A DNA stretch of 64,000 nt from Leptodactylus fallax (Eukaryota > Chordata > Amphibia > Anura > Leptodactylidae), in NCBI GenBank assembly GCA_947044405.1, contig CAMRHE010000167.1:1-64000 (forward strand), written 5' to 3'. Below the pieces are notes generated by a model that saw nothing but the letters and a program-made list of their open reading frames with translations, had not been told where the DNA came from and did not search any database. Shown here piece by piece: positions 3,082 to 41,700 of the stretch (within the stretch, counting starts at the first letter, position 1; the number at the start of each line of letters is the position of its first letter). Both the position numbers and the translations under genes were made by a program.

Positions 3082-3270
3082 TATGTATGTTGATCACATG
3101 ACTGTTATGTAACTGAGCTTGCTTTTAAAACTGTATTGAACTACGCAATAAAGTAGAAACTGTTCATACACGATATCTGTGTACGTCTTGTTTCCCGAGC
3201 GCTCGAAACTGGTTATCTATTTAATTAGGCTTACGGTGACATCCATCCCAGGGGAGATTAACCCCCGACA

Positions 3271-6437: not shown

Positions 6438-9400
6438 ATGTGGGGAGAATGCCCTGATGATGACCTGATCGCTGCAAGTCCTGTCATACAGGTGGAAATG
6501 GAGGGTATTCCGGTTACCGGGATGATTGACACGGGTTCCCAAGTAACGACCTTGAGTAGAGACTGTTATGAACGGTACTTCCGGCAACATGTGAAATATG
6601 ATCCCCATACATTCGTACGAGTGGTCGCAGCTAATCAGTTACCAGTTCCGGTCGTGGGAGTGGCCTGGATGAATGTCCGGGTATGTGGCCAAGATCTAGG
6701 TAGGAAAGGCATTGTGGTGGTACAGGAGTCACATGAAGTAAAGGTCCCTGTCATTTTGGGGATGAATGTGTTAAAAGAATTAGATCAGATCCTCTTTGAA
6801 AAGAAAGGTCACGGTTATTGGAAAGAAACCACCACCCATCGGCCTACTCAAACAGCTTTCCAGCGGCTGATCCGGACATGTGGCTTACAGAAAAGTTCAG
6901 ATGCACAGCGTCCTCTGGCTCGAATTTCAGTTCCTTTGCATACAAAAGTTACACTGCCACCCAGTCGGGAGACAATAGTGTCCATGCCCGTAGGCACCTG
7001 TCGGAAACTAGAGGGCATAGCTGTGTTGGTAGAACCACTGCAGGCAGCCGAAGGAGGTGTTGATCCGCTAGTGGCCCGTTCCTTGGCAATAGTTCGCAAT
7101 GGAAGAGTACCACTTCGATGTGTAAACACTCAGGACCAGAGTGTGGACCTGACCCCAGGGAGGCTGCTGGCTAACATCTATGTGACTCCGGAGGAAGTAA
7201 GGAAAGTAACTCCAATGCAGCTGAAGCTGACTGAAAAGGATGAGTGGACCGTAACTGTGTCCATGGGAGAAGATGAGGAACCCACCTCTGAATGGAATGG
7301 CTGTGCAATTCGAGAACAGATGAAGATGGATGTAAGTTCATGTTCTCTGGAATGGGTGCAGAAGGTAGATGAGCTGTTGTGGGAGAACCAAGCCACCTTT
7401 GCACGGTATGCTGAAGATTTTGGATGTACCACAGGGATCTACCATGAGATTCCCACAGGAGACACCCCTCCAATTAGAGAGCGCTACCGACAAATTCCTC
7501 CACAGTTGTATCAGGAAGTGAAAGAACTGTTAGCTAAGATGCTACAGGGTGGGATCATCCAAGAAAGCCAGAGTCCCTGGGCGGCTCCTGTGGTGTTAGT
7601 AAGAAAAAAAGATGGGTCCATCCGATTTTGCGTAGACTATCGGAAGTTAAACGCTTGCACCGTACGAGATTCCTACCCCTTGCCACGGATTGAGGAGTCC
7701 CTCTCAGCGCTAGGGAGAGCCCGGTACTTCTCCTCACTAGATCTGGCTAGTGGGTATTGGCAGGTGCCGATGGCCACAAAAGACAAGGAGAAGACGGCAT
7801 TCATCTTGCCCATGGGACTATACGAATTTAACCGGATGCCCTTCGGGTTGACAAATGCACCCGGAACGTTTCAGCGGTTGATGGAGAAATGTCTCGGTGA
7901 CTTCAACTTTGAGTTCACTCTCATCTACTTGGATGACATTATAGTGTATTCTGCGACCTTTGAAGACCATCTCCACCAGTTGGGGCAAGTATTTCGAAGA
8001 TTGCGGGAACATGGGCTCAAATTGAAACCCAGTAAATGTCGGTTGTTCCAATCTGAAATTGATTACTTGGGTCACCGCGTATCAGGAGAAGGGGTGAGAC
8101 CATCAAGAGACAAGATAGCGGCTGTTCAAGATTGGCCGATACCAACTACCCTGCGAGAAGTGAGGGCGTTCCTTGGAGTAGCCGGTTACTATCGACGGTT
8201 TATTAAGGATTTCGCCAAGGTAGCAGCACCACTTAATGCTCTCCTACGAGGCACATCCGGTGGTCCAAAGAACCGGTCCGTGAAGTGGGGACCTGAACAG
8301 GAACAAGCCTTCCAGGCATTGAAGGATGCACTGACAACAGCCCCAATCTTGGCATATGCTGATTACCACTTGCCGTTCCAGCTATATACAGATGCAAGCC
8401 TGTATGGTCTTGGAGCAGTGCTTTCCCAGCTTCAGGATGGCCAGGAGAGGGTCATAGCGTACGGCAGCCGGTCTTTGAGAGATTCTGAAAGAAACCCCGA
8501 GAATTATAGTTCATTTAAATTGGAGCTGTTGGCACTGGTATGGGCCATGACCGAGAAATTCTCTGAATATTTGACCGGTGCTGAAGTTTTGGTACTGACT
8601 GACAACAACCCACTAGCTCACCTGGAAAATGCCAAGCTCGGGGCGTTAGAGCAGAGGTGGATAGCCCGAATGTCTACATTCAATTACCGCATTAAGTATC
8701 GGTCCAAGACAGAGAACCAGAATGCTGACGGACTTTCTAGGGTAACTGCCCAGACCCCCACAGAAGACGTGGATCATGAGTTGGAGCATGTGGAGGTGCC
8801 CGATTTCAGCAGATTTTCACAGGCCTTGACCGCCACTAATCAGTTTGAGATGGAGGGGACTGAAATGGCTCCTTTCTTTGGTCCCTCACGACAGGAATGG
8901 GCACAGATACAACAGACCCATGAGGGGCTGGCGCAGATGATCAAGTGTGTTGAGAAAGGCCAGAAGCCCTGTAGAGAGGAAAGAGAACGACTGACACGTG
9001 AGATATTATCTGTTTTGAGTCAGTGGGAAAAGTTGGAGATGAAAAATGGAGTGCTATGCCGAAAGGTCTATTTACCTTCTGAGATCGACATTCGATACCA
9101 AATTGTGGTGCCTAGTGAACTGGCTCGCTCCTTGGCAGTTGAGGCTCATAATAAGAATGGACATTTTGGTCATGAGAAGACCTTTCGTTGGTTACAGCGA
9201 CTGATTTACTGCCCTGGTCTTCGTCAAATGGTCGAAGAAGTATGCCGCAGCTGTCGAACTTGTGAGATCCATAAGGCAATAGAACAGAGAGCTCCCCTGC
9301 AAACCATCGTGACCCAGGAACCTTTAGAAATCGTCATGATAGACTATCTAATGGTGGGCCCATCCAATAGCGGACACCAGTATTGCCTCGTAATGGTGGA

Positions 9401-10526
9401 TCACTTCACCAAATTTGCGGTGGTAACCGCCACCAAGGACCAGACAGCTGAGTCAGCAGCTCGTGCTCTGTGCCAAGATTTCATTCGAGTATATGGGTGC
9501 CCCCAACGCATCCACTCCGACCAGGGCGCCTGCTTTGAGGGACACGTAATGAAAGAAGTTCAACGTATCTACGGGATAAAGAAGTCGCACACGACTCCAT
9601 ACCACCCTCAGGGAAATGGGGCCTGTGAAAGATTCAACAGAACTCTGCTACAGATGCTGCGGACTCTGGAGGAAGACAAGAAGTTACAGTGGCCTCAGTT
9701 CTTGTCTGAAATGGTGTGGGCCTATAACAATCAGGTCCATTCTACAACGGGGTACTCTCCTTATACACTTCTCTTTGGGCGGTCTGGGCGAAGTATAGGA
9801 GAATTACAGTTGAATGATGTGGATGGGCTCCCTCCGAGGGATCCAACCTCTTGGGTGCGGGCGCATCGGCAGAGACTTGAGACGATCCATCGATTGGTGC
9901 GGCAGCGCCTGCAAGAACATCCCCATCCTGATAAGACCCCAGTGCAAGAAGCACCATTGCAACCAGGCGACCTGGTGCTAGTTCGTGTCAAGAAACCCCA
10001 AGGGAAATTGGAAAGCAGATGGGAGGCTTTGCCGTATCGTGTTGTTGGCCGCAAGTATGCGAATGGGCCAGTGTACCAGGTCCAGAAAGAAGGAACTGAT
10101 TGTGTTCGAGTACTTCACCGAAATATGTTGCGCCTGTGTCATTCTGAAGGGACAAATCACGATGGGCCTGCCAATGTGAATGAGCTCCCACAGTCAGAGA
10201 ATGGAGGTGCGGAATGGGCCTCAGACGAGGAGGATGATTGTTGGCCGATCCCTGCTCCTGGGGATGTTCCACCTGTGACTACTGTATCTCCGGCCTGTGC
10301 CCCCTCTGGTGCGGAATCCGCTGGTCCTTCTCAGCCCATAGCTGCAGCACCCCATAATATACCACCGGTCCTCAGACGGACCACTAGGCCAAATGCTGGT
10401 ATTCCCCCTGTTCGGTATGCGCAGGATGAGTTTGTTTGGCCTGCCATACATCGGTATACTACCACCCTGTGCATAAAAGTACAACCCTCTGGATATACAG
10501 TCATAGGCAGGGACTGCCAATCTTAA
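6438..10526 (+). CDS. pol: Ty3/gypsy Pol polyprotein (protease, RT, RNase H, integrase)
   Basis: 1362 codons from the first ATG are open without interruption. In life pol is probably made as a Gag-Pol fusion entering at 6384. Domains in order, in residues from 6438: aspartic protease with IDTGS near 31; reverse transcriptase with SSLDLASGYWQV and the YLDD catalytic box near 497; RNase H with YTDAS near 650; integrase with an HHCC zinc site near 900-950 and a DDE core (MIDYL near 968, HSDQG near 1026, CERFNRT near 1062); and a C-terminal chromatin- or DNA-binding tail. All catalytic motifs are present, so pol may be functional. The frame stops 14 bases before the 3' LTR, which leaves no room for env. 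Confidence 0.95.
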   Translation: MWGECPDDDLIAASPVIQVEMEGIPVTGMIDTGSQVTTLSRDCYERYFRQHVKYDPHTFVRVVAANQLPVPVVGVAWMNVRVCGQDLGRKGIVVVQESHEVKVPVILGMNVLKELDQILFEKKGHGYWKETTTHRPTQTAFQRLIRTCGLQKSSDAQRPLARISVPLHTKVTLPPSRETIVSMPVGTCRKLEGIAVLVEPLQAAEGGVDPLVARSLAIVRNGRVPLRCVNTQDQSVDLTPGRLLANIYVTPEEVRKVTPMQLKLTEKDEWTVTVSMGEDEEPTSEWNGCAIREQMKMDVSSCSLEWVQKVDELLWENQATFARYAEDFGCTTGIYHEIPTGDTPPIRERYRQIPPQLYQEVKELLAKMLQGGIIQESQSPWAAPVVLVRKKDGSIRFCVDYRKLNACTVRDSYPLPRIEESLSALGRARYFSSLDLASGYWQVPMATKDKEKTAFILPMGLYEFNRMPFGLTNAPGTFQRLMEKCLGDFNFEFTLIYLDDIIVYSATFEDHLHQLGQVFRRLREHGLKLKPSKCRLFQSEIDYLGHRVSGEGVRPSRDKIAAVQDWPIPTTLREVRAFLGVAGYYRRFIKDFAKVAAPLNALLRGTSGGPKNRSVKWGPEQEQAFQALKDALTTAPILAYADYHLPFQLYTDASLYGLGAVLSQLQDGQERVIAYGSRSLRDSERNPENYSSFKLELLALVWAMTEKFSEYLTGAEVLVLTDNNPLAHLENAKLGALEQRWIARMSTFNYRIKYRSKTENQNADGLSRVTAQTPTEDVDHELEHVEVPDFSRFSQALTATNQFEMEGTEMAPFFGPSRQEWAQIQQTHEGLAQMIKCVEKGQKPCREERERLTREILSVLSQWEKLEMKNGVLCRKVYLPSEIDIRYQIVVPSELARSLAVEAHNKNGHFGHEKTFRWLQRLIYCPGLRQMVEEVCRSCRTCEIHKAIEQRAPLQTIVTQEPLEIVMIDYLMVGPSNSGHQYCLVMVDHFTKFAVVTATKDQTAESAARALCQDFIRVYGCPQRIHSDQGACFEGHVMKEVQRIYGIKKSHTTPYHPQGNGACERFNRTLLQMLRTLEEDKKLQWPQFLSEMVWAYNNQVHSTTGYSPYTLLFGRSGRSIGELQLNDVDGLPPRDPTSWVRAHRQRLETIHRLVRQRLQEHPHPDKTPVQEAPLQPGDLVLVRVKKPQGKLESRWEALPYRVVGRKYANGPVYQVQKEGTDCVRVLHRNMLRLCHSEGTNHDGPANVNELPQSENGGAEWASDEEDDCWPIPAPGDVPPVTTVSPACAPSGAESAGPSQPIAAAPHNIPPVLRRTTRPNAGIPPVRYAQDEFVWPAIHRYTTTLCIKVQPSGYTVIGRDCQS

Positions 10527-22439: not shown

Positions 22440-23204
22440 CATTGTACAGAGATCTGTAAAGGATTTGTAGGAGGAAAGTCCTGCTCAAAAATCTGCCTTG
22501 TGAGAGTCTATCCGGCAGGTCACCGAGATAAGGCTATTAAGATATATGTAATCTTGGATGACCAAAGCAATAGGTCTTTAGCTAAGTCCACCTTCTTTGA
22601 CACCTTTAACATAGTAGGCCCCGGTTCTCCCTACTCCTTAAGGACATGTGCAGGTACTGTCGAGACGGCGGGGAGAAAGGCGACTGGATACAAAGTAGAA
22701 TCCATGGACGGTCAGACCTGTTTATCTCTGCCAACCATACTGGAGTGCAACCAGATTCCCGACAACAGGTCAGAGATACCTATATCGGAGGTAGCAGCAC
22801 ACCACCCTCATTTGAAGCGTATAGCTCACCTGATACCACAACTGGACCCAGAGGCTCCAATAGTCCTACTCCTCGGAAGAGACATACTACGAGTCCACAA
22901 GGTTAGGGGACTAATTAACGGTCCCCAGAACGCTCCATATGCCCAGAGACTGGACCTAGGGTGGGTCATTGTAGGAGATGTCTGTCTAGGAGGAGCACAC
23001 AAGCCGACTTCAGTCAACAGTATGCTCACTTGCACACTTGAAAAGGGACGTCCTTCTCTCTTCCAGCCTTGTCCGAGTAGTTTCCTGGTAAAAGAGTTGC
23101 CACACAGTGCTCCCCTGCCTTGTCCTTTCGCAGGGTCTTACAGAGTCTTACAAGTCGAGCTTACCTACGGGACAGAAACCCTGCAAAGGTTGGCATCACT
23201 GTAG
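22440..23204 (+). pseudogene. BEL/Pao protease region, truncated before the reverse transcriptase
   Basis: Continuing in the gag downstream frame, ILDDQSNRSLAKSTFFDTF is the aspartic-protease active-site region, followed by the conserved LLGRDILRVHKVRG and GWVIVGD blocks that precede reverse transcriptase in BEL elements. At about 23130-23200 the sequence jumps to the linker before integrase, and this frame stops at 23204. About 2 kb expected for reverse transcriptase and RNase H is missing. Confidence 0.8.
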
Positions 23205-24621
23205 ACATGCTTTTACTGCTCCCAACTTAGAGAGGTCCAAGAACTTGATAATTCGCACAGTACAACATGAGTGTTATGCCAAAGAAATAGACCACCTCAA
23301 TAAAAAGCAATCCATTCCTAAGGACAGTGCTTTGAAGAAGCTTGATCCAATCATCGACCAAGATGGGTTGCTCAGAATAGGAGGCCGTCTTCATGAAGCC
23401 AAAGTGGAATTTATGGAAAAACATCCACTAATAATTCATGGACATCATCATGTCACAACGTTGCTTGTGCAACACCACCACATTCAAGTGAAGCACCAGG
23501 GCCGATTGTTTACTGAAGGGAATCTACGAGCTGCTGGACTGTGGATAGTTGGAGCAAAGAGATGTGTGAGCAAACTTATCTTCAACTGTGTTACTTGTCG
23601 CAAACTTCGTGGCAAGTTTCAGAATCCGAAGATGGCCAATCTCCCACCTGACAGACTCAGTACAGATCCTCCTTTCACTAACGTAGGTCTGGATGTATTC
23701 GGTCCTTGGTCTGTAGCTACACGGCATACTAGAGGAATCCATGTCAGTGCGAAACGCTGGGCAGTTCTGTTTACTTGTATGTCCAGCAGAGCTGTCCATA
23801 TAGAAGTGATTGAATCGATGGACACTTCAAGTTTCATAAACGCACTTCGACGGTTTATCGCCATCAGAGGGCCTGTAAAACATATTCGTTCTGACAGAGG
23901 TACAAATTTTGTTGGTGCAGTGAAAGAACTTCAAATTCCCTCCAACTTAGACACTACTAATGTGGAGAGATACTTAAGTGAGCAAGGATGCACCTGGACT
24001 TTCAATCCACCACATTCTTCTCACATGGGAGGTGCCTGGGAGAGAATGATAGGGATAGCACGCAGAATCTTGGACTCAATCTTCTTGCAAGTGGGGAGTA
24101 CAAGACTCACCCATGAGAGTTTAATGACATTCTTGGCAGAAGTTTCAGCCATCATGAATGCCAGACCATTAACTACGCTATCTAGCGGCTCTGGAGATTT
24201 GACTATTCTCACTCCTGCCATGTTGCTGACCCAGAAAACCAGTGTTCTGAGTGCACCATCTGGAGATTTTGGTGACAAAGACCTTTACAGACGACAATGG
24301 AGGCAAGTGCAAAGTCTCTCCAATGCTTTCTGGGACAGATGGAGGAAGCAGTACATCTCCACCTTACAACCAAGGAGGAAGTGGCAGACTAACAAGCGAA
24401 ACATTAGACCTGGAGACGTCATGCTCATGAAAGACAGCCAGTTGCACCGGAATGAGTGGCCACTGGGCCTCATCACTCAAACGATCCCAAGCAAAGATGG
24501 GAATGTACGTAAAGCTGAGGTCAAAGTGTGGAAGCTTGGCGAGAGTAAGCTATTCCTCAGGCCAGCAGCTGAGCTTGTTGTATTGTTTTCACAAGAGGAG
24601 CCTAATAGTGGCATCTCTTGA
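23107..24621 (+). CDS. BEL/Pao integrase-region frame (504 codons)
   Basis: After about 30 junction residues the protein reads NLERSKNLIIRTVQHECY, an HHCC zinc domain (HPLIIHGHHHVTTLLVQHHH ... CVTCRKLRG), and an integrase core with GLDVFGPW, HIRSDRGTNFVGA and GGAWERMIG as the D, D and E motifs. It ends in the DUF5641-type C-terminal domain (RRQWRQVQSLSNAFWDRWRK, RPGDVMLMKD). No stops interrupt it. It could supply integrase only if expressed as part of a polyprotein. Confidence 0.85.
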   Translation: MLPCLVLSQGLTESYKSSLPTGQKPCKGWHHCRHAFTAPNLERSKNLIIRTVQHECYAKEIDHLNKKQSIPKDSALKKLDPIIDQDGLLRIGGRLHEAKVEFMEKHPLIIHGHHHVTTLLVQHHHIQVKHQGRLFTEGNLRAAGLWIVGAKRCVSKLIFNCVTCRKLRGKFQNPKMANLPPDRLSTDPPFTNVGLDVFGPWSVATRHTRGIHVSAKRWAVLFTCMSSRAVHIEVIESMDTSSFINALRRFIAIRGPVKHIRSDRGTNFVGAVKELQIPSNLDTTNVERYLSEQGCTWTFNPPHSSHMGGAWERMIGIARRILDSIFLQVGSTRLTHESLMTFLAEVSAIMNARPLTTLSSGSGDLTILTPAMLLTQKTSVLSAPSGDFGDKDLYRRQWRQVQSLSNAFWDRWRKQYISTLQPRRKWQTNKRNIRPGDVMLMKDSQLHRNEWPLGLITQTIPSKDGNVRKAEVKVWKLGESKLFLRPAAELVVLFSQEEPNSGIS

Positions 24622-28519: not shown

Positions 28520-29110
28520 GTATAGTCTGACAAGTGATTTGTAAAGTGGTATAACTATGTTCACAGCATGCATATCCATGCCTCTTTTGATAAACCCCAT
28601 GATCTGATTTGCCTTGGTAGCAGCTACCTGGCACTGACTGCTACAGTTAACCTTACTTTCAATTACATTTTTTTGTCCTTTCCGTATGATTTTTGCCCAG
28701 CGTTATCCCATTTAGTAAGTAATATTGGCTTTCATTCTCCATTCCCATGTGTACAACGTTACATTTATCAGTATTAAACCTCACTTGACACTTCTCTGTA
28801 TCACTTTACTATCTTTTTCGTGTTAATCGCTTTATACAGTTTAGTATCCTCTGAAAAAGTTTACATTTTACTTCTATCAGGTCATTTCTAAATGTATATT
28901 GGAGAACAGGGCCCAATAATGCCCCCTTGTGGATCCCCACTAGAGTATCCCACATAACACTGCCAGCCACGTAGTGCCGCCAATTAGTACCAGACGGTAG
29001 TAAGTAGTAGCTATATGACTTATCTCTGCTGGCCCCTCTTCTCTCTGACATGGAAGATAAATGTGAACAGTCCCAAGAGTCACCCATATATATCTTCCAA
29101 GACAAGCGCT
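28520..29110 (-). pseudogene. CR1/Rex-like non-LTR retrotransposon fragment (reverse transcriptase)
   Basis: On the minus strand an interrupted frame reads a VTSGVPQGS-like block (HYVAGSVMWDTLVGIHKGALLGPVLQYTF), then NDLIEV and, further down, a YYLLNGITLG-type block and an IxLYKSLVRPxLEY-like end. These are the late reverse-transcriptase motifs of CR1/Rex-type LINEs. Many stops and shifts show it is old. A plus-strand relative is at 32041-32830. Confidence 0.65.
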
Positions 29111-29289
29111 GATATCTATGCTCTGCACAAGCAACAGAGGATTACGTTGCCCTTGTTTTCCTGCATTTAACCCCAAACTACAGATTTTGCACTGTGAAGT
29201 ATAGTAGAGAATGGCCAAGAAGAGAAAAATGGTGTCTGGTGTCTTGTCTTGCACACAAGAACATACAAGAACATTGTATATAACACCAT

Positions 29290-29340
29290 GTCTGAAGAAG
29301 AGAGCTAGACTCTCGAAAGCTTACTATCAAATATACTCAG
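29290..29340 (+). other. Hammerhead-like core in a repeat end (weak)
   Basis: CTGAAGA (29292-29298), then a GAGAG/CTCTC stem with a 5-base loop (29300-29314), then GAAA (29315-29318) resembles the hammerhead ribozyme core CUGANGA-stem II-GAAA. There is one extra A (29299) before stem II, and I could not draw a firm stem III or cleavage site. Degenerate hammerhead cores are known in amphibian repeats and Penelope-like elements. Confidence 0.25.
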
Positions 29341-29739
29341 TTAGCCTCTAAAAGGTATCGCCTGATTTCTTCACTCTTCCACTACTTTCTATGGCTAATA
29401 TGCTACAACATTATACTACAAATAAAATCATAGTCATTGATTTTCATTGGAACTACTGCTGATATGGGGTGGGGACACCAAATGTAGGACCACCCATGAG
29501 GATCTGGTCACGATTAAAAAAGCTCCATGTACATAAGAAGACCCCAATATTATAAATGGCATATGGTAGATGGGGAGTCCTATTACAGATGTTTGCTTAA
29601 CATGTCTCTTCTACTCAAGATTTTCTGTTCTTCAGATTTGTAATAGTGCGTAGTCAACTTTATAAAGAAAACTTTTTTGCCTCACTATTCTAATACTATG
29701 GACATGCCATAAATACTTTAGATAGGAATAACCCTTTAA

Positions 29740-29883
29740 AGTGGTTGTCCACTCCTGTCTATGTGTCCTGTCTGGTATTAGAGTTCAGTTCCGATGTAGT
29801 GAAGCAAAACTGCAATACCAGACACAATCCTTGGAGATGTGGAAGCAGCCATGTTTTTCTTTTCATTTAACACGCATATTTCT
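29740..29883. mobile_element. Short MITE-like repeat between TTAA sites
   Basis: TTAA at 29736-29739 and 29884-29887 bounds a 144-bp segment starting AGTGGTTGTCCACTCC with GCAATACCAGACAC inside. It resembles a common amphibian TTAA-flanked repeat. Terminal symmetry is weak. It lies just past the predicted polyadenylation site of gene 1. Confidence 0.4.
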
Positions 29884-29910
29884 TTAAGAGAATGGAACAC
29901 AATAAGCAAT

Positions 29911-30069
29911 GTGCTGATCTATTCTACTTTATTGGTTGTGAGACATGGAAAGAAGTGAAATCATTGTCAGAGAATATGAGGATTCATGTAAGAAGAGGAG
30001 GCAAAATCATCAGGGGGGAAATTCAGTCCGAGGACTCCTCATATCCTGGTCAGGAATCCATTGCTGAGC
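29911..30069 (-). other. Predicted terminal (3' UTR) exon of secreted-protein gene 1
   Basis: On the minus strand a pyrimidine-rich tract ending TTTTTTATCCTCTAG at 30070 makes a good splice acceptor. About 140 bases on, AATAAA (29933-29928) is followed by a CA some 17 bases further and then a TTGCTTATTGTG GU-type element, the arrangement of a vertebrate polyadenylation site. It pairs with the donor CCAG/GTAAAA at the end of exon 3 (33245/33244). It carries no coding sequence because the stop is in exon 3. The link between exon 3 and this exon is inferred. Confidence 0.55.
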
Positions 30070-30149
30070 CTAGAGGATAAAAAAGAAGATGAAACTGTAA
30101 TTTATTTACTATTAAAATGTGTGAAAAAAATGGATTAGTGTGGGTGTGG

Positions 30150-32036
30150 CTTAACTGAGGAGGATATAGTGTAATATTACAGAGGAGGATATAGTGTAAT
30201 ATTACATAGGAGGATACAGTGTGATATTACAGAGGAGGATACAGTGTAATATCACAGAGGAGGATACAGTGTAATATCACAGAGGAGGATATAGTGTAAT
30301 ATTACAGAGGAGGATATAGTGTAATATTACAGAGGAGGATACAGTGTAATATTACAGAGGAGGATACAGTATAATATTACAGAGGAGGATACAGTGTAAT
30401 ATCACAGAGGAGGATATAGTGTAATATTACAGAGGAGGATATAGTGTAATATTACAGAGGAGGATACAGTGTAATATTACAGAGGAGGATATAGTGTAAT
30501 ATTACAGAGGAGGATATAGTGTAATATTACAGAGGAGGATATAGTGTAATATTACAGAGGAGGATATACTGTAAAATTACAGAGGAGGATATAGTGTAAT
30601 ATTACAGAGGAGGATACAGTGTAATATTACAGAGGAGGATATAGTGTAATATTACAGAGGAGGATACAGTGTAATATTACAGAGGAGGATATAGTGTAAT
30701 ATTACAGAGGAGGATACAGTGTAATATTACAGAGGAGGATACAGTGTAATATTACAGAGGAGGATATAGTGTAATATTACAGAGGAGGATATAGTGTAAT
30801 ATTACAGAGGAGGATACAGTGTAATATTACAGAGGAGGATATAGTGTAATATTACAGAGGAGGATATAGTGTAATATTACAGAGGAGGATATAGTGTAAT
30901 ATTACAGAGGAGGATATACTGTAAAATTACAGAGGAGGATATAGTGTAATATTACAGAGTAGGATATAGTGTAATATTACAGAGGAGGATATAGTGTAAT
31001 ATTACAGAGGAGGATATACTGTAAAATTACAGAGGAGGGTATACTGTAAAATTACAGAGGAGGGTATAGTGTAATATCACAGAGGAGGATATAGTGTAAT
31101 ATTACAGAGGAGGATATAGTGTAATATTACAGAGGAGGATACAGTGTAATATTACAGAGGAGGATACAGTATAATATTACAGAGGAGGATATAGTGTAAT
31201 ATTACAGAGGAGGATATAGTGTAATATTACAGAGGAGGATATAGTGTAATATTACAGAGGAGGATATAGTGTAATATTACAGAGGAGGATATACTGTAAA
31301 ATTACAGAGGAGGGTATAGTGTAATATCACAGAGGAGGATATAGTGTAATATTACAGAGGAGGATATAGTGTAATATTACAGAGGAGGATACAGTGTAAT
31401 ATTACAGAGGAGGATACAGTATAATATTACAGAGGAGGATATAGTGTAATATTACAGAGGAGGATATAGTGTAATATTACAGAGGAGGATATAGTGTAAT
31501 ATTACAGAGGAGGATACAGTGTAATATTACAGAGGAGGATACAGTATAATATTACAGAGGAGGATACAGTGTAATATCACAGAGGAGGATACAGTGTAAT
31601 ATTACAGAGGAGGATATAGTGTAATATTACAGAGGAAGATATAGTGTAATATTACAGAGGAGGATATAGTGTAATATTACAGAGGAGGATACAGTGTAAT
31701 ATTACAGAGGAGGATACAGTGTAATATTACAGAGGAGGATACAGTGTAATATTACATTGGAGGATATAGTGTAATATTACAGAGGAGGATATAGTGTAAT
31801 ATTACAGAGGAGGATACAGTGTAATATTACAGAGGAGGATATAGTATAATATTACAGAGGAGGATATAGTGTAATATTACAGAGGAGGATATAGTGTAAT
31901 AATACAGAGGAGGATATAGTGTAATATCACAGAGGAGAATACAGTGTAATATTACAGAGGAGGATATAGTGTAATATTACAAAGGAAGATATAGTGTAAT
32001 ATTACAGAGGAGGATATAATGTAATATTACAGGAGG
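30150..32036. repeat. 25-bp-unit minisatellite, about 75 copies
   Basis: The unit is AGGAGGATATAGTGTAATATTACAG, with recurring variants (ATACAG, TATAATATT, TACTGTAAAATT, ATATCAC). Each unit contains the perfect 12-bp palindrome TGTAATATTACA. Identical variant strings recur 250 bp apart (31041-31180 and 31291-31430), which shows higher-order duplication of 10-unit blocks. The array lies in the predicted last intron of gene 1. Confidence 0.97.
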
Positions 32037-32040
32037 ATTC

Positions 32041-32830
32041 AGGGAAGTTAGAAGCTTGGGCAGAGAACTAGCACATGAGTTTTAATGTGAATAAATGTAA
32101 ATTTCTTCTAAATTTTTGCCGAGTGAAGAAGTTCTACAATTATGTATTAAATAAAATCCTGCTGATATACTACTGCTGAATAAGACTCTATATTGCCTCT
32201 ATACAAAACACTGGTAAGGTCATATGTAGAATAAAGTGCACAGTTTTGGGCACCAATATATAGGAAGGATATATCTGAACTGGATCGGGTGGAGAGTAAG
32301 GCGCCCAAGGTAGGTAAGGGATGGGTGGATTAGAGTCTAAAGAAAAGTTATTAAACTTGGGATTGTTCAGCCTGGAAAAAAGATGGCTTAGGGGTGACCT
32401 AATAACAATATACAGATAAATGAATGGACAATACAGAGATCTGTCCAATGATCTCTCTAAACCAAGGTCTGTAACTGTGACAAGGGGGCATTCTCTACGT
32501 CTAGAGAAGAAAGCTTTTACCGCCGTCATAGGTGAGGTTTCTTTACAGTAAGAGCAGTAGCAATATGGAACTCACTGCCACATGATGTGATGGCTGATAC
32601 TTGTACGAGTTCAAGAAGGACCTGCGTGCCACTCTTATAGGTAAGAATATCATAGGTTATGGGAGCTAGAAATTTTTGGGATAGGATGCTGACCCAGGGA
32701 CCAATTGCCATATTGGCGTCTACCTCTTGGGGGGATTTACACTCCCCTGGATCAAGTTGGCAGGTTTAAGGGATGGACTTGATGTACTTTGTCTTTATCC
32801 AACCTTATCTTTAAAAAAATATATATATAG
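32041..32830 (+). pseudogene. CR1/Rex-like LINE 3' end
   Basis: Plus-strand interrupted frames read a YKTLVRSYVEYCAQFWAP-like block, RKDISELDRVESKAPK, then LFSLEKRW(L/M)RGDLI, TRGHSLRLEKKAF and AVRIWNSLP-like remnants, the C-terminus of a CR1/Rex-type reverse transcriptase. It ends near 'ctttatccaaccttatct' plus A/T-rich tail. Many stops; the copy is old. It lies in the same predicted intron of gene 1 as the minisatellite. Confidence 0.65.
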
Positions 32831-33262
32831 ACCAAACCCCAAAACACATACTAATCCCAGATCCCCAAACTAATAAAGACCTCCGAGGAGACTCCCCATA
32901 GATAAAGAACTTATTTCAGAACTACCCTGAATCAGACCTAAGAGTAAACTTTCACCCATTAGTGTAATGGAAAGAGAATGGGGAGAAATGTTGGGACATG
33001 TTCAATTTTCTGTGGATATTGTGGAGGAGTTGATGAGTATTATTACATGGAGGATCATTACATCCTATGAGGACACGGGGAGAACTTGTAGACTCCAGCT
33101 AGATGTTGTCCCTAGTATGCTGAGCGCTGCCCCACCATGCTGCCCTTTACTGCTCCTTTATATTCTCCTCTATTTTACTTCTAGTCATATTCATTTGTAG
33201 CAATCACTTTACATAAAAACTGCAAAGAAATCTTCAGATTTTACCTGGATTTGTGCAGGAAG

Positions 33263-34264
33263 TTAGTGATCTTCTTCACATGTATCGCAAGGTTCAGAAG
33301 GTTCTTCATCATTTCCATAACCATAATTGCCCTGTATATATACAAACAATATCTAGTATTAAACTCCCATCATGGATACCTCACTATATACAGAGCTGAG
33401 TTTGTCATCTGGCACAACTTACTGTGACACTACAATGTCTGACTACTATTACTACTGCTGTATAAAGCACTAGGTACAGAAGCTCCCGCTACACCCATCC
33501 CAGGATAGGAGGGAGAGCTGGACAACAGGGTTACCCTAGGGCCAGGAATGATGGAAGGGGATGTGACAACCGACCATCCTATGGATGAATACACTATAGA
33601 TACAACGTCATCCATTGTGGTACCAGAAACTGCTCTACAATATATTTTTATAGGGTGTGTAGTGACATTTTTCTGTTGTTATATACAAAACCAATAGTAA
33701 CATGATGAATTGTGTCTGCATGTGTCCACCACTAGGGGGAGAGAACTACATATAAATGTGTACAGAGTCCACTGACCCCAGCTAGCATTATTAGTCCTCC
33801 AAGGCTTGATGTGGAATAATAGGGCAATGTGGACACTTACTTCTACAGGTTTGGTAGAACCTTCATTATTTTCACCACCTTCAGAGTCAGTTGAAGAGTC
33901 GCTGCCTTCTTCTGTATCATCAGTATCTTCTGGAGTATGGCTGTCATCTTCTATAGCATCATCGTTGTCGTTACCCTGAGCAGCAACTGCAACATAGTGG
34001 GAAAAAAGCACCAGAAATATCATAACATATTCAAAATCCTTTTGAAGTTTACAGTTATATCTGTTTCTCGGAAAGCTGGGTGTCAACCAATATGGCTTTT
34101 ATGACTACGAAAAGATCCAACAAATTTCACTGTATAACTTTGGCTTCTGAGGCATGGAAAGCTGGGTGACAGACAATGTTCTAGAAAGGGTTCTAACAAT
34201 AATGTCTGTACTTACCAAAGAAGCTGATGAAGAGCACAAGGAGGAGAAGAGCGGCCGCCTTCAT
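33263..34264 (-). CDS. Secreted-protein gene 1: short, very acidic, unknown family
   Basis: Three coding exons are predicted: 34264-34216, 33986-33841 and 33331-33263 (exon 3 continues to a donor at 33245). All junctions are GT/AG with good consensus (TTTG/GTAAG, TTGCAG/TTGC, GTAGAA/GTAAGT, ATATACAG/GGC); introns are phase 1 then phase 0. The 87-residue product starts MKAAALLLLVLFISFFVAAQ, a clear signal peptide probably cut after VAA. The mature 68 residues have about 26 D/E, one K and no R, with runs such as EDTDDTEEGSDSSTDSEGG, ending EPCDTCEEDH. The stop is 18 bases before the exon end, so decay would not be triggered. It is paired with gene 2 at 38694-40802. I do not recognise the family; a calcium-binding or mucosal secreted protein is only a guess. 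Confidence 0.7.
33333..33550. repeat. Duplicated noncoding block (intron 2 of gene 1), paired with 38845-39065
   Basis: TATATACAAACAATATCTAG, CCCATCATGGATACCTCAC, ATGTCTGACTACTAT and CACCCATCCCAGGATAGGAG occur in both blocks with about 90-95% identity. The second copy has a 22-bp extra segment near 38905. This shows that genes 1 and 2 arose by tandem duplication including intron sequence. Confidence 0.9.
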
Positions 34265-34299
34265 GGTGGGAATGACTGGGGTGAAGTCTATTCCTGAAT

Positions 34300-34360
34300 A
34301 ATCTCAGCTCAGGTGTGGATACCTGCACCAGATGATGGCGCACTATATATAATACTAGGA
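34300..34360 (-). promoter_or_regulatory. TATA promoter of gene 1
   Basis: TATATATA lies at about 34344-34351 on the minus strand, some 80 bases before the ATG at 34264. Transcription would start near 34320, giving a 5' UTR of about 55 bases that ends TTCCCACC before ATG. The TATA box, UTR (TGAGCTGAGATTATTCAGG) and ATG context are repeated almost unchanged ahead of gene 2, which supports them as functional sequence. Confidence 0.6.
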
Positions 34361-34564
34361 TACAGCGCACAGAGACGCCTTCTGCACCTGTTTGGCACCT
34401 GACAAAGAATTAAAGATGCCAAGAATGTAAATTGCAAATGTCAAACCTTGAAGACATTTTCTCTCTTGGGACAATAGTTTTTATATGATGTTTGTTTTAG
34501 TTCCAGTTTTGCAAATGATGTGGATAATAATTCTAACTCTATATGATCTATAGACTAGAGCTAT

Positions 34565-35030
34565 ACTCCGATCAGCCATAACATTAACACCACTCACCCG
34601 GAGCTGACAATGTGAGAGCTTATTTTCGAGGTCTAATGTCAATTGAGCACCTGTAGCTGGACGTCTGGTTCATAGCCCAATGTTCTGCAAACCCCTTCTC
34701 ATGGTTTGTGTCCACACTGCTTTGTCGCCCTAGTCTTGGCTTTTGATGTCCAGATTCACTCGTAGTACAGAACGCCACTATACGCCATCTCGGCACACCT
34801 CTTACTGTCATTCCAGTTTCTCGCTGTTTTCCCAACCACTAGGACGCACAACATTGACCAGCGCTGGCATCTCGGACTAGGAGTGTAGTGATCTGCCGCT
34901 TTGATAAACCAAGGTCTTTCATGTCAAGGATTCTGTCCTCTCAGATTGTGACAAGTGGCGATAACTGGCACGTCAGTAAACAGAAGACATTGCACAATGA
35001 TCCCGAACCGCTTGATCAAATTTTTGAGGT
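34565..35030 (-). pseudogene. Tc1/mariner relic (GATCAGCCATAACATTA ends)
   Basis: The plus-strand left end reads CTCCGATCAGCCATAACATT, the terminus of a known vertebrate Tc1/mariner group. On the minus strand fragments such as KDLGLSKRQITTLLVRD resemble the helix-turn-helix part of its transposase, heavily decayed. The end nearest 35030 is cut by the Tc1 element at 35035. Another relic of the group may be at 56703-57120. Confidence 0.5.
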
Positions 35031-35034
35031 TTTA

Positions 35035-36126
35035 CAGTCATATGAAAAAGTTTGGGCACACCTATTAATCTTAATCATTTTTAGTTCTAAATATTTGGGT
35101 GTTTGCAACAGCCATTTCAATTTGATATATCTAATAACTGATGGACACAGTAATATTTCAGGATTGAAATGAGGTTTATTGTACTAACAGAAAATGTGCA
35201 ATATGCATTAAACCAAAATTTGACCAGTGCAAAAGTATGGGCACCTCAACAGAAAAGTGACATTAATATTTAGTAGATCCTCCTTTTGCAAAAATAACAG
35301 CCTCTAGTCGCTTCCTGTAGCTTTTAATCAGTTCCTGGGATCCTGGATGAAGGTATTTTTGACCATTCCTCTTTACAAAACAATTCCAGTTCAGTTAAGT
35401 TTGATGGTCGCCGAGCATGGACAGCCCGCTTCAAATTATCCCACAGATGTTCAATGATATTCAGGTCTGGGGACTGGGATGGCCATTCCAGAACATTGTA
35501 ATTGTTCCTCTGCATGAATGCCTGAGTAGATTTGGAGCTGTGTTTTGGATCATTGTCTTGCTGAAATATCCATCCCCGGCGTAACTTCAAATTCGTCACT
35601 GATTCTTGTACATTATTCTGAAGAATCTGCTGATACTGAGTTGAATCCATGCGACCCTCAACTTTAACAAGATTCCCGGTGCCGGCATTGGCCACACAGC
35701 CCCAAAGCATGATGGAACCTCCACCAAATTTTACAGTGGGTAGCAAGAGTTTTTCTTGGAAAGCTGTGTTTTTTGGACGCCATGCATAACGCCTTTTTGT
35801 ATGACCAAACAACTCAATCTTTGTTTCATCAGTCCACAGGACCTTCTTCCAAAATGAAGCTGGCTTGTCAAAATGTGCTTTTGCATACCTCAGGCGACTC
35901 TGTTTGTGGCGCGCTTTCAGAAATGGCTTCTTTCGCATCACTCTCCCATACAGCTTCTCCTTGTGCAAAGTGTGCTGTATTGTTGACCGATGCACAGTGA
36001 CACCATCTGCAGCAAGATGATGCTGCAGCTCTTTAGAGGTGGTCTGTGAATTGTCCGTGACTGTTCTCACCATTCTTCTTCTCTGCCTTTCTGATATTTT
36101 TCTTGGCCTGCCACTTCTGGGCTTAA
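35035..36126 (-). mobile_element. Tc1-like transposon, family A copy 2, truncated
   Basis: The end CAGTCATATGAAAAAGTTTG (TA at 35033-35034) and 200-bp inverted repeat match 1436-3081. On the minus strand the transposase runs from the GRPRK linker through WTDETKIELF, QQDNDPKHSS and SPDLNIIEHLW. An extra G near 35337 shifts the frame shortly before the C-terminus. Homology to copy 1 stops at 36126, where gypsy gag sequence begins, so the N-terminal domain and other end are lost. Confidence 0.9.
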
Positions 36127-36343
36127 ACTCCCTCCAGGGGCTGAGGAGTGGACTGACTTTAAAAATTTTTTTTTGTCTTTGGGGTCTATATATGCTGAGC
36201 CAGACCACATTGGTCTTGCGGAATCGCAACTCCTCGCCATGCGGCAGGGCAAACGCTCTGCTGAGGAATATTGCGCAGAATTCCGCAAGAGCAGCGTGAC
36301 TGCAGGTTGGTGTGAGTCAGCTCTAAAGGCCCACTTTAAACAA

Positions 36344-37037
36344 ATAATAATAATAGTCCTTTAATAGTCCCACAGTGGGGAAATTCAGTGTGTTACAGCA
36401 GCAAAGATAAGATAAGATAAGCAGATACAAATACAAATACAACATGTACAGGAATGTTCCAAGGTGAGAGGCATTACAATAATAGCAGACAGACAGATAG
36501 GACGTAGCAGAGGGGGGGGGGGGGGATTTAACAGGCAGAGAGATATTTCAGTTCTCTGTATGTAATGATCTCCGCTTAGGTCGGTGTTGGTTGTACAGCC
36601 TAACCGCGGTGGGGAGGAAAGACTTCCGATAGCGCTCCTTCTCACACCTAGGGTGGAGCAGTCGGTCACTGACAGTACTGCCCAGCGCAATCACAGTCTC
36701 ATGCATGGGATGGGAGTTATTCTCCCGCATGGAGCTCACCACGGACAGTATCCTTCTGTCACCCACCACCTGCACTGGGTCCAGTGGGCTCCCCAGGACA
36801 GAGCTGGCCCTTCTAATCAGCTTGTCAAGTTTATTTCTGTCCCTGGTTGATATACTGCTCCCCCAGCAGGCCACTCCAAAGAAGATGGCTGATGCCACTA
36901 CCGAGTTGAAGAAAGTCCTAAGAAGTGCCCCCCGGATTCCAAAGGCTCTCAGCTTCCTAAGCAGGTAGAGCCTGCTGTGGCCCTTCCTGTACAGGGCCTC
37001 CATATGATCTGCCCAGTCCAGCTTATTATTAAGGAGC
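36344..37037 (-). mobile_element. L2-like LINE, 5'-truncated, inserted in gypsy gag
   Basis: Minus-strand frame 37039-36548 reads LDWADHMEALYRKGHSRLYL, RTFFNSVVASAIFFGVACWG and RKSFLPTAVRLYNQHRPKR, the C-terminus of an L2/Rex-type reverse transcriptase protein. The 3' end carries TGAATTTCCCCACTGTGGGA then AATAAA-like and ATTATTATT tails. AAACAA at 36338-36343 and 37038-37043 looks like the target duplication. A GATAA tract (36405-36420) and a G-run (36512-36526) are internal. Confidence 0.8.
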
Positions 37038-37108
37038 AAACAAGGCTAGGTGACCGTGTTAAGGAGCTCTGGGTTGGTCACCCAGATCCTCCCACTCTTG
37101 AGTAGGCC

Positions 37109-38047
37109 ATGACTTTGGCTGTCCGTATTGACCGTAGGATCCGGGAAAATGTTAAAGAAAGAATAGGGTCTGCTTCTTCCAAGTTTTCTGTCTCTCCCTC
37201 ACTCTCTCCTGAGAAACCTGTTATTTCTCCCATGACTCCTGGTGAGAAACCAATGCAACTGGGAATTATGGATGCCAAGACGCGACGAGAGCATCGTCTC
37301 AGGAACAACCTCTGCCTGTACTGTGGTGCTTCCGGTCATTTTGTCAGTGACTGCTCGATCAGACCTCGCAGACCATCAGAAAAGCTTCAGTGCCTGAGTG
37401 GTAATCAGAAGAACCACTCAGGAAACCAGGTATTTGCCAGTAATAACAATAAGATGTTGTTATCTGTGTCTCTGTCCTCTGGGGACAGATCTGTTTCTGG
37501 CCAGGCCTTAGTTGACTCTGGGTCTGCGGCAAACTTTGTCACATTCTCGTTTGTCTCAGCTTTAGGCATTGAGCTTTTGCCACTTGACACTCCTCTGGCG
37601 GTTACTGGAGCGGATTTTGCCCCACTGGCCAGGGGTAAGGTCCGATTCAAGACCCCCTTAATAACGTTGCAAGTGGGTTCAGCTCATTCAGAGGTCATGA
37701 GCTTTTTTGTTATGGAGCATCTGTCTTCCGATATTATTTTGGGGCTCCCCTGGTTGAACTTCCATAACCCTATTTTTGATTGGGGTAAAAGGGAGTTGGT
37801 AAAATGGGGAGATCAGTGCTCATCCCACTGTATTGTTTTGCACACCTTAAATTGTGTTACTGAGGAGACTGTCTCGGCTGCAAAAGGTGGGAAACACCAG
37901 GTGAATAAAAAATGTTTGCCTGGCCCACCAGTGTCTGTGGTTGTGCAAAAAGACCCTGAATTGAAGGCAGAGAAAATACTGGGTCCTACTAAAACTGGTT
38001 TATCTGGTGAGGGTCCGGTGGCCCCTCATAAAGGGGGGATACTGTAA
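37109..38047 (+). pseudogene. Gypsy gag zinc finger and aspartic protease remnant
   Basis: The 312-codon frame has a CCHC knuckle (CLYCGASGHFVSDC, about residue 70) and a protease active site ALVDSGSAANFV with ILGLPWL further on. Upstream gag continues to about 37040 but is broken by an in-frame TAG just before the ATG and by a one-base shift. It ends at TAA within the LTR start, so almost all of pol has been deleted between protease and LTR. Confidence 0.85.
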
Positions 38048-38698
38048 CGTCTCTGCCGTTTCGGGTCTCGGCGCCGCCCTCCGCTCGCACGCTGTGGCGA
38101 AGGAGGCGTCTTCAGTTTGGTTCTTTGTGTAAGTTTCTTGATGCTCAGTCTGAACATGGTCCTAGTTCCCTTGCTGTGTAAAGCCACACCCGTGTAATTA
38201 GGAACACTTCTCTCTGGACTGCTTAGAGTTAATCTCTACCTGGCCTGTGTGATTAACAGCCTGTGTACCTATCAGCTCTGGGGCTGGTCCCAGACTTTCT
38301 ATAAACAGGTTGTCAGCCCTCACATGGTCGCCGGTTATTGCTCTGTCTTTGCCTGCTCTCCTTGTGATATACCTTACTACTTTGTTACCTGATTTTCTGA
38401 CCACTGGCTTTGACTTTGACTATTCTCTTGGATTTAGATTTTGTACTGCTTTGCTCGTTTGTTACTGACCCCTTGGCTTGCTCACACTGCTTCTGTGTTG
38501 TTTTTGTCTTGTCCTGTTCTATGTGTCACTTACCCAGTATAGGGTGTGTCTTCTGGTTGTCCTTTTACCATTTAGGGTAACTGAGGCAATAGGAAGGGAC
38601 AGTGGCTGGGGTGAGATTAGGGCTCACTTGTCTCTGTCCTTCCTCCCTGACCGCTGCAGTAGTGTCAGGGTATTGCTTCATTTGGCAAGACCCTTACA
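38043..38698 (+). repeat. 3' LTR of the truncated gypsy element (656 bp)
   Basis: It begins TGTAACGTCTCTGCC after an AAAGGGGGG purine tract and ends CAAGACCCTTACA. A related fragment is at 14036-14310. Read on the minus strand its end supplies TGTAA, which forms the stop codon of gene 2. Confidence 0.85.
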
Positions 38699-40802
38699 GT
38701 TTGTTCTTTGTTGCCTCACCAGGTTTATTCTTTGGTCTCTCACAAGGTTTATTCTTTGATTTATCATTTGGTTTATCCTTTGATTCATCACCTGATGTAT
38801 CATATTCACCAGGTTTTTCACCAGTTTCACAACATGGTCCGTCCTGCATATATACAAACAATATCTAGTATTAAACTCCCATCATGGATACCTCACTATA
38901 TACAAAGAAGTTGTAGTCAGATTGCAGGGCTGAGTTTGTCATTTGGCACAACTTACTGTGACACTACAATGTCTGACTACTATCACTACTGCTGTATAAA
39001 GCACTAAGTAGAGAAGTTCCCGCTACACCCATCCCAGGATAGGAGGGAGAGCTGGACAACTCTAGGGCCACCACTTCTCTTGTTAGTTACAAGTGTTGAA
39101 AGGAAGAACAATTGAAAATTTTACACCTTTAGGACTAATTCACACAGATATTTTTGGTCTGTGTGCTGTTCATGTGTACAATGGACAGCACACAGACCAA
39201 TAGTATTGCATGCTGCAGTGCACACCACTGTTTTGTAGCATGCACTATTTTGGTCCGTACAGCAGATGACTTGAACTTGGAGACCTTTGGAGAGAATTGT
39301 CCCAACAGTTTCCTGGTCCATCTACTCTGCAGAAACACAGATCCCACACATATGTACAGTGTGAAAAACCATCCACTTGTGATAACAAAAGCAGCTGTGA
39401 GCAACAGAGACATTTCAAGCTTTCTGCCACCAGAGGCTTAAACTAAAATGGAGCCCCCTCCCACTGAAAACCCCCCCAATAATCATATACATGTACACAC
39501 ACAAGTCTGGGAGGGTTCACGTTATGCTGCAGTATAAGTTTCATATTTCTACCATTTCTTGCTAAAGAAAATGGTAAAACCAAACTGGACAAGATGGCAG
39601 ACAGTAGAGTGACTCCCATCTCAAAAATCACAACCTGGGCAGGTCTAATTTTAAGTACTGCAGATCAATGAGAATTACTGATGAGCAATTCGGCTCATAA
39701 CAAGACAGTGTCATTCCAAATTTCCCCAAAACTTTGGATTCATTCAAAGCTGAGATTTTAAGGGTTCAGACAATAGAATATAATAATGGGAGGCCAAAGG
39801 ATGTGCAGAAAAATAATACACAGCCCATACTGAACTTCTCTTACCTCTCCGAGGCTGTGGCACAGCGTTTTCTTTACCCGTGTCTTCCAACCTCTTCCAG
39901 ACTCCTGGTGATGTGAGGAGCCATAGGGGACCTGTGTCTGGACCATGGTGTTCCCCCTGGGCCTCTGACATTACCAGGAGGCCAGAAAAAACTGGGCAAT
40001 GCTGAGGTAGAAGAGCAGAAAGGTGAAGGAAGGCAAGTATGGGCTGTTTATTACTTTTCTGCAACTTCCCAGGGCCTCTAATTATTACACTCCGAGGACT
40101 GAAGACACCCCAGAGTATAATAATGGTGCTTCTGGTTTTAACCCAAAAGTTGCAGGTGAACCTCACAAATCTTCACAAGACGAGGTGTACCCTTCACTCA
40201 TGAGAACTGATCTGACATTTCTGTTTCAGTCCATCACTATTCTTTTAGGTTTACCACCTGTATACAAAAAATGTATATGCAGCGTGACCCCAAGCAAAGA
40301 TAGTAATAATTAACCCCTTAAGGACATGGCCTTTTGTTGCCTGAAGGACGCAGCCCCATTTTTCAAATCTGACAAGTCACTTTATGTAGTAAGAACTTTA
40401 CTTACCCAAGTGATTTTGAGACTATTTCGTGATGTCACATTGCACCCCCATAAGATATTGTACAGCTCCCACTGAATACTATTCTAGTACAGTAAGTCAA
40501 CTCTGTCTTAATGTGCAATAATAGGATAATAATAGTAAAAGTTTTCACACTTACATCTTCAGGGGTTATGGTGTCATTGTAACCCCCAAGGATGGTGGGG
40601 GCTTCACGATCAATGGGTTTTCCATGAGCAGCAACTGCAAAAATAGAAAATAATGTACTGAAAATAAGATGTCCTGACATCATATTTAGTCCAATTGTTG
40701 TAATTCTGGAGTTTGGGAAAGAAGGGGCTTCCAATGATAATGTGTACACTTACCAAAGAAACTGGAAAGGACCACAAAGAGGAGAAGAGCGGCCGCCTTC
40801 AT
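38694..40802 (-). CDS. Secreted-protein gene 2: tandem paralogue with basic K/N/P-rich tail
   Basis: Coding exons are 40802-40754, 40634-40555 and 38843-38694, with the same intron phases (1, 0) and near-identical splice sites as gene 1 (TTTG/GTAAG; TTTGCAG/TTGC; GAAGAT/GTAAGT; ATATGCAG/GAC). The product of 92 residues starts MKAAALLLFVVLSSFFVAAH, almost the signal peptide of gene 1. Exon 2 is KPIDREAPTILGGYNDTITP-like and unlike gene 1. Exon 3 encodes DGPCCETGEKPGEYDTSGDE followed by repeated K-(D/N)-K-P units (SKDKPNDKSKNKPCERPKNK) with 3 cysteines. The last two bases of the CTG codon and the TAA stop come from a gypsy LTR end, so the natural C-terminus is probably lost. Intron 2 is 1.7 kb and holds repeats. 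Whether it is still expressed is unknown. Confidence 0.65.
38845..39065. repeat. Duplicated noncoding block (intron 2 of gene 2)
   Basis: Counterpart of 33333-33550. Similarity starts at the splice-acceptor side of exon 3 and does not continue into exon 3 itself. Confidence 0.9.
39066..40140. repeat. Intron 2 of gene 2: inverted repeats and a weak copy of the hairpin module
   Basis: 39175-39245 holds an inverted pair (GTGTGCTGTTCATGTGTACA / TGTACAATGGACAGCACAC). From 39775 to 40140 are pieces of the recurring module: AATATAATAATGGGAGGCC, TCTTACCTCTCCGAGG, GACCATGGTG and ATTACACTCCGAGGACTGAAG with CCCCAGAGTATAATAATGG. No coding frame is credible. Confidence 0.5.
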
Positions 40803-40829
40803 GGTGGGAATGACTGGGGTGAGGTCTTT

Positions 40830-40895
40830 ACCTGAATAATCTCAGCTCAGGTGTAGATACCTGTACCAGATGATGCCGCACTATATATAATGCCA
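40830..40895 (-). promoter_or_regulatory. TATA promoter of gene 2
   Basis: TATATATA at about 40882-40889 stands about 80 bases before the ATG at 40802, the same distance as in gene 1. The UTR and the 60 bases around it are over 90% identical to gene 1; beyond about 40905 similarity weakens. Confidence 0.6.
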
Positions 40896-41700
40896 GGAAT
40901 CAGCGTAAAGTGTGTGACTTCATCTGGATTTGTTTGTCACCTGGCAAGGGATAAATGTCAATCCTTGAGACCTTAAAGTCATTTTCTGCATCTTAAACTC
41001 AGTCTCTTGCAACAATAATGTAACAGCTTCACTGAACATCTCCTGCTTGGGGTAAACTGTAATGTACTTTGCTGAAACTCCAAGCAGAACTGTGAGGGGA
41101 TAAGCAAAGACCCGAGGGAGGTGCAGACAATATAAAAGACACTGAAACTTTCCTCACCTCTCCTGGGCATTCAGTCTGTATTCATCAGCTCTTCCATCCT
41201 CATACAGCATCTTCTCTGACATCATAAGTCAACGCTGAGGGCTGTGATTGGACCTTAGCAGTCACTTGGGATGCTCTGATATCATGTGTTTGGGTCACAT
41301 TAGGGACCCCTCTGGCATGTGACGTAGAATAACATGTCAGAAGAGGCTGCAAGAGCCAGCAGGTGAAGACCAGACGAGAGGGGAAAAAAATGGATGTAAA
41401 GGTGATAAAGCTGAGTATGAGTTTTTTATTTTGTCTGCACCTCCCCTGGGCCTTCGCTTTTTCTACTCTGGGGTCTAAAGTGACCCCATAATTTAATAAA
41501 AGCTCTTTTGTTTGGGTCTGAAACAAGACTGGTGGGCAAACCTGTTTGCAAAAAGGAATCTTGCAAGATTCATCCATCTCTATTTATCATACACTCCCGA
41601 TTGTGTCTTCAAAAACTGCATCTGAAAAACACTAAGCTGTTGAAGATGGTCCCAAGACGCCCCCAGATATCTAAAATTTTAACAATGATTTGACCCTTAT
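40896..41700. repeat. Upstream region of gene 2 with module remnants; no further gene seen
   Basis: 41150-41500 contains CTCACCTCTCCTGGGCATTC, CTGAGGGCTGTGATTGGACC, TTAGCAGTCACTTGGGATG and CTACTCTGGGGTCTAAAGTG followed by ACCCCATAAT, the same order of pieces as in the module at 12691-13010. The 125-codon minus-strand frame in it is not a recognised protein. Confidence 0.5.

Follow-up and report, generated by a model that had tools for sequence, protein, structure and literature searches.

The window analysed here, a stretch of 64,000 nt from the frog Leptodactylus fallax (assembly GCA_947044405.1, contig CAMRHE010000167.1, positions 1 to 64,000), contains two neighbouring genes on the minus strand that are predicted to encode small secreted proteins (Table 1). 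Both spliced frames translate without a break at the positions first proposed for them, giving proteins of 87 (gene 1) and 92 (gene 2) residues, each assembled from three coding segments. In both genes intron 1 is in phase 1 and intron 2 in phase 0, and GT/AG dinucleotides are present at all 10 proposed splice borders (5 donors and 5 acceptors). The clean frames and common phases, together with a shared TATA box and signal exon, agree with the original prediction, and the presence of a tandem pair of secreted-protein genes is well supported at the sequence level.

Table 1. Features of the two genes and of the adjoining putative long terminal repeat (LTR); positions refer to the 64,000-nt window
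Feature	Position	Strand	Remark
Gene 1 TATA box (TATATATA)	34344-34351	-	87 nt upstream of ATG
Gene 1 exon 1, coding part: predicted signal peptide MKAAALLLLVLFISFF, ends in phase 1	34216-34264	-	
Gene 1 exon 2, 146 nt, encoding an acidic mature region of low complexity; ends in phase 0	33841-33986	-	
Gene 1 intron 2, conserved end, near-identical to gene 2	33332-33526	-	pairwise alignment
Gene 1 exon 3, coding part: CxxC and stop	33263-33331	-	exon runs on to 33245
Gene 1 predicted exon 4, 3' untranslated region (UTR) only	29928-30069	-	AATAAA at 29933-29928
Gene 2 TATA box (TATATATA)	40882-40889	-	87 nt upstream of ATG
Gene 2 exon 1, coding part: predicted signal peptide MKAAALLLFVVLSSFF, ends in phase 1	40754-40802	-	
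Gene 2 exon 2 (80 nt; 146 in gene 1): N-D-T glycosylation sequon, ends in phase 0	40555-40634	-	
Gene 2 intron 2, conserved end	38844-39060	-	pairwise alignment
Gene 2 exon 3: in-frame homology to gene 1 over the first 63 nt, followed by the repeat tail	38694-38843	-	
Four 24-nt units (8 residues each), K/N/P-rich tail ending at LTR edge	38699-38794	-	TRF rows within 38699-38803
Putative LTR, 656 nt, TGTAA...TTACA, antisense to gene 2, cuts exon 3	38043-38698	+	

The two genes share a conserved shell that is not due to chance. The segment from the TATA box to the ATG is identical at 81 of 87 nt without a gap and the coding part of exon 1 at 42 of 49 nt, which confirms that the TATA box, the 5' UTR and the signal peptide are common to both genes. 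The end of intron 2 is identical at 188 of 195 aligned nt, with an additional 22-nt indel, and the similarity also extends upstream of the TATA box for ~110-130 nt, with identity at 76 of 105 aligned positions. In each of these four comparisons, as well as in that of intron 1, where the similarity between the genes is faint, none of 300 shuffles reached the observed score. Intron 2 shows faint similarity over its first 110 nt as well, where 1 of 300 shuffles reaches the score.

The conserved end of intron 2 forms a sharp-edged, near-identical island, which may be the product of gene conversion or a constrained intronic element. No further copy was recovered from the rest of the window at E up to 0.05, and the Rfam search of positions 29900-41300 at gathering thresholds, which included the island, gave 0 matches. 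Likewise, when 12 pieces of both genes were compared with the window at E up to 0.05, only these two copies were recovered as family members, besides two short weak matches of 14 and 38 nt. A scan of both strands of the 64 kb for signal exons (an ATG, a hydrophobic stretch and a donor site, with thresholds set knowing the pair) returned 4 places, of which only gene 1 and gene 2 combine a CCCACC start context with a TATA box no more than 200 nt upstream; no further signal exon with an upstream TATA box was detected in the window.

The mature part of gene 1, counted from residue 20, comprises 68 residues, of which 26 are D/E, as originally estimated. Judging from this composition, the product is probably a disordered polyanion with one CxxC motif. 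The basic character ascribed earlier to the end of gene 2 holds for the repeat tail (isoelectric point (pI) 9.5) and not for the mature part as a whole, which contains 16 acidic and 13 Lys/Arg residues and has a pI of ~5. The gene 2 product, if made, would begin with an acidic segment, carry an N-glycosylation sequon and end in a short, basic tail of repeats.

It was also proposed that the mature parts barely align. The alignment of exon 2 is indeed rich in gaps (67 gap columns), with the matches mostly at its ends, yet its score exceeds that of 300/300 shuffles (z 3.3). In exon 3, 21 codons can be aligned in frame with a single codon gap, and 37 of 63 nt are identical, a value reached by 16 of 5000 codon shuffles. 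The mature parts are thus not wholly without homology. Because of this in-frame homology in exon 3, gene 1 and gene 2 look like duplicates over their entire length. The concentration of exon 2 matches at its ends would also suit a scenario in which recombination placed the promoter, UTR and signal exon of one gene in front of an unrelated neighbouring body; a comparable origin has been proposed for the salamander protein PRF (PMC8904931). Such a capture appears most improbable here, as the two genes are again homologous from the end of intron 2 onwards, in frame within the aligned part of exon 3. Weak similarity is present as well in intron 1 and exon 2 (both 0/300 shuffles) and over the initial 110 nt of intron 2 (1/300).

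After the aligned codons of exon 3, gene 1 stops and gene 2 continues into a 24-nt tandem repeat, the units of which read GDESKDKP, NDKSKNKP, CERPKNKP and GEATKNK+L. The 24-nt periodicity holds as far as 38699, with matches at 62 of 79 positions, and drops beyond it to about chance (13 of 59). The bases that follow 38699 on the gene 2 strand (TGTAAGGG) are the end of a 656-nt TGTAA...TTACA stretch. This stretch is directly preceded by a purine-rich tract (AAAGGGGGGATAC, 38030-38042) and is adjoined, on the same strand, by an aspartyl-protease open reading frame (ORF) at 37109-38047 (PF13650, E 7e-7, above the cut-off). From these features we infer that an LTR element oriented opposite to gene 2 terminates here with its 3' end. 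The coding sequence of gene 2 runs into this LTR: the last Leu codon lies across the boundary, and the stop codon falls within the LTR. The predicted exon 4 of gene 1 has no second copy in the window (E up to 0.05), and no last exon of gene 2 was found there; the first AATAAA/ATTAAA past the gene 2 stop on the gene strand is at ~36835, 1.9 kb downstream. As the repeat array ends at the LTR edge, the stop codon is LTR-borne and no last exon is present in the window, gene 2 is very probably truncated at its 3' end by the LTR, which is short of proof. The C-terminal contrast between the two genes would thus be due, in part, to repeat expansion and LTR insertion in gene 2.

The predicted exon 4 of gene 1 is placed by splice consensus sites and a poly(A) signal, with no paralogous exon recovered from the window (E up to 0.05). 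The predicted intron 3 of gene 1, which precedes this exon, contains a 25-bp minisatellite (30157-32037) of ~75 copies with 95% matches.

Diversifying selection had been put forward as the cause of the difference between the genes. Under this explanation, the products would be fast-evolving defence peptides, pheromones or gamete proteins, with amino-acid change favoured in the mature part and the shell retained. A conserved promoter and signal exon beside dissimilar mature parts are in line with it. The same is true of exon 3, which is far more divergent than the adjacent intron island (26/63 versus 7/195; P about 1e-12) and has a nominal dN/dS of 1.6. However, the replacement and silent differences behind this ratio (pN 0.44 and pS 0.32 over 21 aligned codons; rounded counts 22/49 versus 4/14) do not differ significantly (Fisher P = 0.36), nor do those of exon 1 (16 codons, pN 0.14, pS 0.17, nominal dN/dS 0.76; P = 0.66), and both values come from one gene pair with few sites, the exon 3 alignment moreover adjoining the repeat. 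Positive selection on a protein raises divergence at replacement sites, not at silent ones. The silent sites of exon 3 (~4/14) also exceed the intron island (7/195) in divergence (P = 0.003), an increase that selection acting solely on amino acids would not be expected to cause. The contrast between exon and intron depends, in addition, on a single island, because conservation is poor in intron 1 and in the 5' portion of intron 2. The divergence of exon 1 (7/49) exceeds that of the island (P 0.01), whereas its difference from the 5' segment (6/87) is not significant (P 0.22). The proposal of diversifying selection is thus not borne out by these counts and we judge it unlikely. The pattern leans towards a homogenised or constrained intron island beside weakly constrained, drifting coding sequence.

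Divergence that is indistinguishable from neutral could also mean that neither copy makes a working protein and that the open frames are the remnant of a recent duplication. The apparent cutting of gene 2 by the LTR, its lack of a recognised last exon and the surroundings of the pair (of the 7 window ORFs compared with Pfam, 6 are genes of transposons or retroviruses, including two located between gene 1 and gene 2) fit such decay, but the promoter, the start context, the proposed splice sites and both frames are intact, and gene 1 has a plausible last exon. A stop codon lying close before the last junction is not expected to elicit mRNA decay; that of gene 1 is only 18 nt before it, and mRNA decay is thus not expected for this gene. 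Decay of both copies seems rather doubtful, although with regard to gene 2 it overlaps with the explanation that we prefer. The explanations considered here are not mutually exclusive, and truncation of gene 2 is common to several of them.

In the search for protein homologues, gene 1 gave no candidate and gene 2 gave three, none of them at E up to 1. This search requires shared words of 5 residues and is weak for low-complexity or divergent sequences, so that divergent members would be missed. As a control, residues 330-780 of a gypsy-type pol protein encoded in the window matched 7882 of 8000 scored candidates, frog proteins included; among the matches listed, the four best were from Eleutherodactylus coqui (74%), Leptodactylus fuscus (83%), Anomaloglossus baeobatrachus (75%) and Pseudophryne corroboree (62%), and fish and other taxa ranked lower, in line with a probable frog origin of the window. 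The control covers frog proteins in general, not small secreted ones. The suggested lineage restriction of the family is compatible with the result that no homologue was found in a collection with frog proteins, within the low sensitivity of the search. Neither gene matched a PDB sequence, neither product matched Pfam above the curated cut-off, and no description of the pair was found in the open-licence literature.

Several known families were considered and rejected. The sub-threshold Pfam matches of gene 1 to GRP (E 0.0047, 18 versus 30 bits) and DNA_pol_phi (E 7.6) are below the cut-off and were read as effects of composition. WFDC and Kunitz inhibitors, secretoglobins and cystatins (the last considered because of an LGGY stretch in gene 2) gave no Pfam match at E up to 10. 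The introns of secretory calcium-binding phosphoprotein (SCPP) genes are all in phase 0, and the phase 1 of intron 1 in both genes speaks against this family.

On balance, we consider it reasonably probable that the pair arose by tandem duplication of a gene whose small secreted product is of low complexity and probably disordered, and that the coding exons drift inside a conserved shell. The TATA promoter, the short 5' UTR and the signal peptide point, by their anatomy, to secretion from a gland or an epithelium. If it is mainly the charge and composition of the mature part that matter, weak constraint may leave the coding exons free to drift through slippage, indels and substitutions. The promoter and signal exon would meanwhile remain constrained, and the end of intron 2 would be homogenised by gene conversion or itself constrained. 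In this scheme, gene 1 is probably intact and would encode an acidic protein, perhaps a cation-binding or mucus-swelling polyelectrolyte, and gene 2, probably cut by the LTR, may be dying.

A number of points weigh against this explanation. The evidence for the pair comes from the DNA sequence, and after a recent duplication frames may still be open by chance. The nominal dN/dS of exon 3 leans towards positive selection, albeit not significantly, the intron 2 island may owe its identity either to gene conversion or to constraint, and function, tissue and disorder are derived from composition alone. Furthermore, neither a second LTR nor a target-site duplication was found in 29001-38042, and for this reason the LTR call rests on the ends of the stretch, the purine tract and the adjoining protease ORF.

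If gene 1 is expressed, it would represent a frog secreted-protein gene without a recognised family, belonging to a pair that has kept its shell but not its product, and the pair would allow slippage, gene conversion and transposon insertion to be separated from positive selection. The pair also indicates that a striking contrast between paralogues can partly stem from a transposon cutting one of the copies.

Mobile elements are present elsewhere in the window. A Tc1-like transposon with transposase Pfam matches lies between the two genes (35324-36229). It shares 98.7% identity, across 1094 aligned nt, with a second copy at 1994-3083 and is, given this identity, probably young. An ORF of 313 aa at 117-1058 matches the retroviral envelope family TLV_coat (PF00429, E 1e-17). 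The gypsy-type pol ORF used in the control (6438-10526) is uninterrupted and encodes 1362 aa, of which residues 330-780 are 83% identical to an uncharacterised protein of Leptodactylus fuscus. Another ORF (23107-24621), with a DUF5641 match and an integrase match just below the cut-off, presumably belongs to a BEL/Pao-type element.

Among known systems, secretoglobin genes have a signal exon ending in phase 1, a next junction in phase 0 and a short last coding exon. The gene pair shares these phases and the short last coding exon, but its products are of low complexity, acidic or Lys-rich, with no helical domain. Precursors of frog skin active peptides of the dermaseptin/caerulein type combine a conserved signal, an acidic stretch and a variable end, and the pair resembles them in all three respects; its products, in contrast, have no Lys-Arg processing site, and the signal peptide and exon layout differ. 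A further comparison is with the plethodontid courtship pheromones PMF and PRF and amphibian SPF, the last being a three-finger protein. These proteins are likewise secreted, with the signal peptide and 5' UTR kept or reused beside differing mature parts, and PRF is proposed to have taken its signal peptide and 5' UTR from PMF (PMC8904931). PMF is described there as a three-finger protein and PRF as mainly helical, whereas the products of the pair contain 2-3 cysteines and are of low complexity.

Closer parallels are found in the mammalian REST genes (semenogelins and rodent Svs2-Svs6, with PI3/WFDC as relatives). These are defined by a signal peptide on exon 1 and a second exon that starts in phase 1 (PMC3209443), the arrangement also seen in the gene pair. 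The promoter, the signal and last exons and parts of the introns of REST genes are conserved and the middle exon is not, as a result of repeat expansion and splice-site choice, and truncated genes and pseudogenes have been reported among them (PMC3209443, PMC7556508); as a possible cause, the authors offer low rather than strong positive selection (PMC7556508, PMC3209443). In the frog pair, too, the promoter, signal exon and parts of introns are conserved, and the body differs between paralogues and has been altered by repeat expansion. A last exon composed of 3' UTR only, typical of REST genes, is predicted in gene 1 from consensus sites, with no counterpart found in gene 2. The systems differ in that the body is carried by exons 2 and 3 in both predicted genes and by a single exon in REST genes, with the extra intron of mouse and rat Svs6 as an exception (PMC7556508). 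Mature REST proteins are relatively rich in Lys and Gln and serve as transglutaminase substrates; mature gene 1 contains 1 Lys, 0 Arg and 1 Gln, and gene 2 is Lys-rich but without Gln, although two of four kangaroo rat REST genes are Gln-poor, so that Lys/Gln richness is not strict (PMC7556508). REST genes are further characterised by a site between Matn4 and Kcns1 and by homology of exon 1 and the last exon to PI3. The gene pair differs from the REST/PI3/WFDC group in having no WFDC or Kunitz match. It is quite improbable, in our estimation, that the pair forms an independent frog counterpart of the REST genes, with a fixed shell, slippage-remade exons, secreted partners of opposite charge (acidic in gene 1, basic in the repeat tail of gene 2) and a gene 2 stop codon supplied by the LTR. 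Since the phases are kept, exons 1 and 2 of gene 2 could, in such a system, splice in frame onto exon 3 and the 3' UTR of gene 1, which, if true, would rescue the cut gene 2 as a hybrid product. As far as these published accounts go, the mammalian REST genes would be the nearest working model for the frog pair, by likeness of mode rather than by established ancestry.

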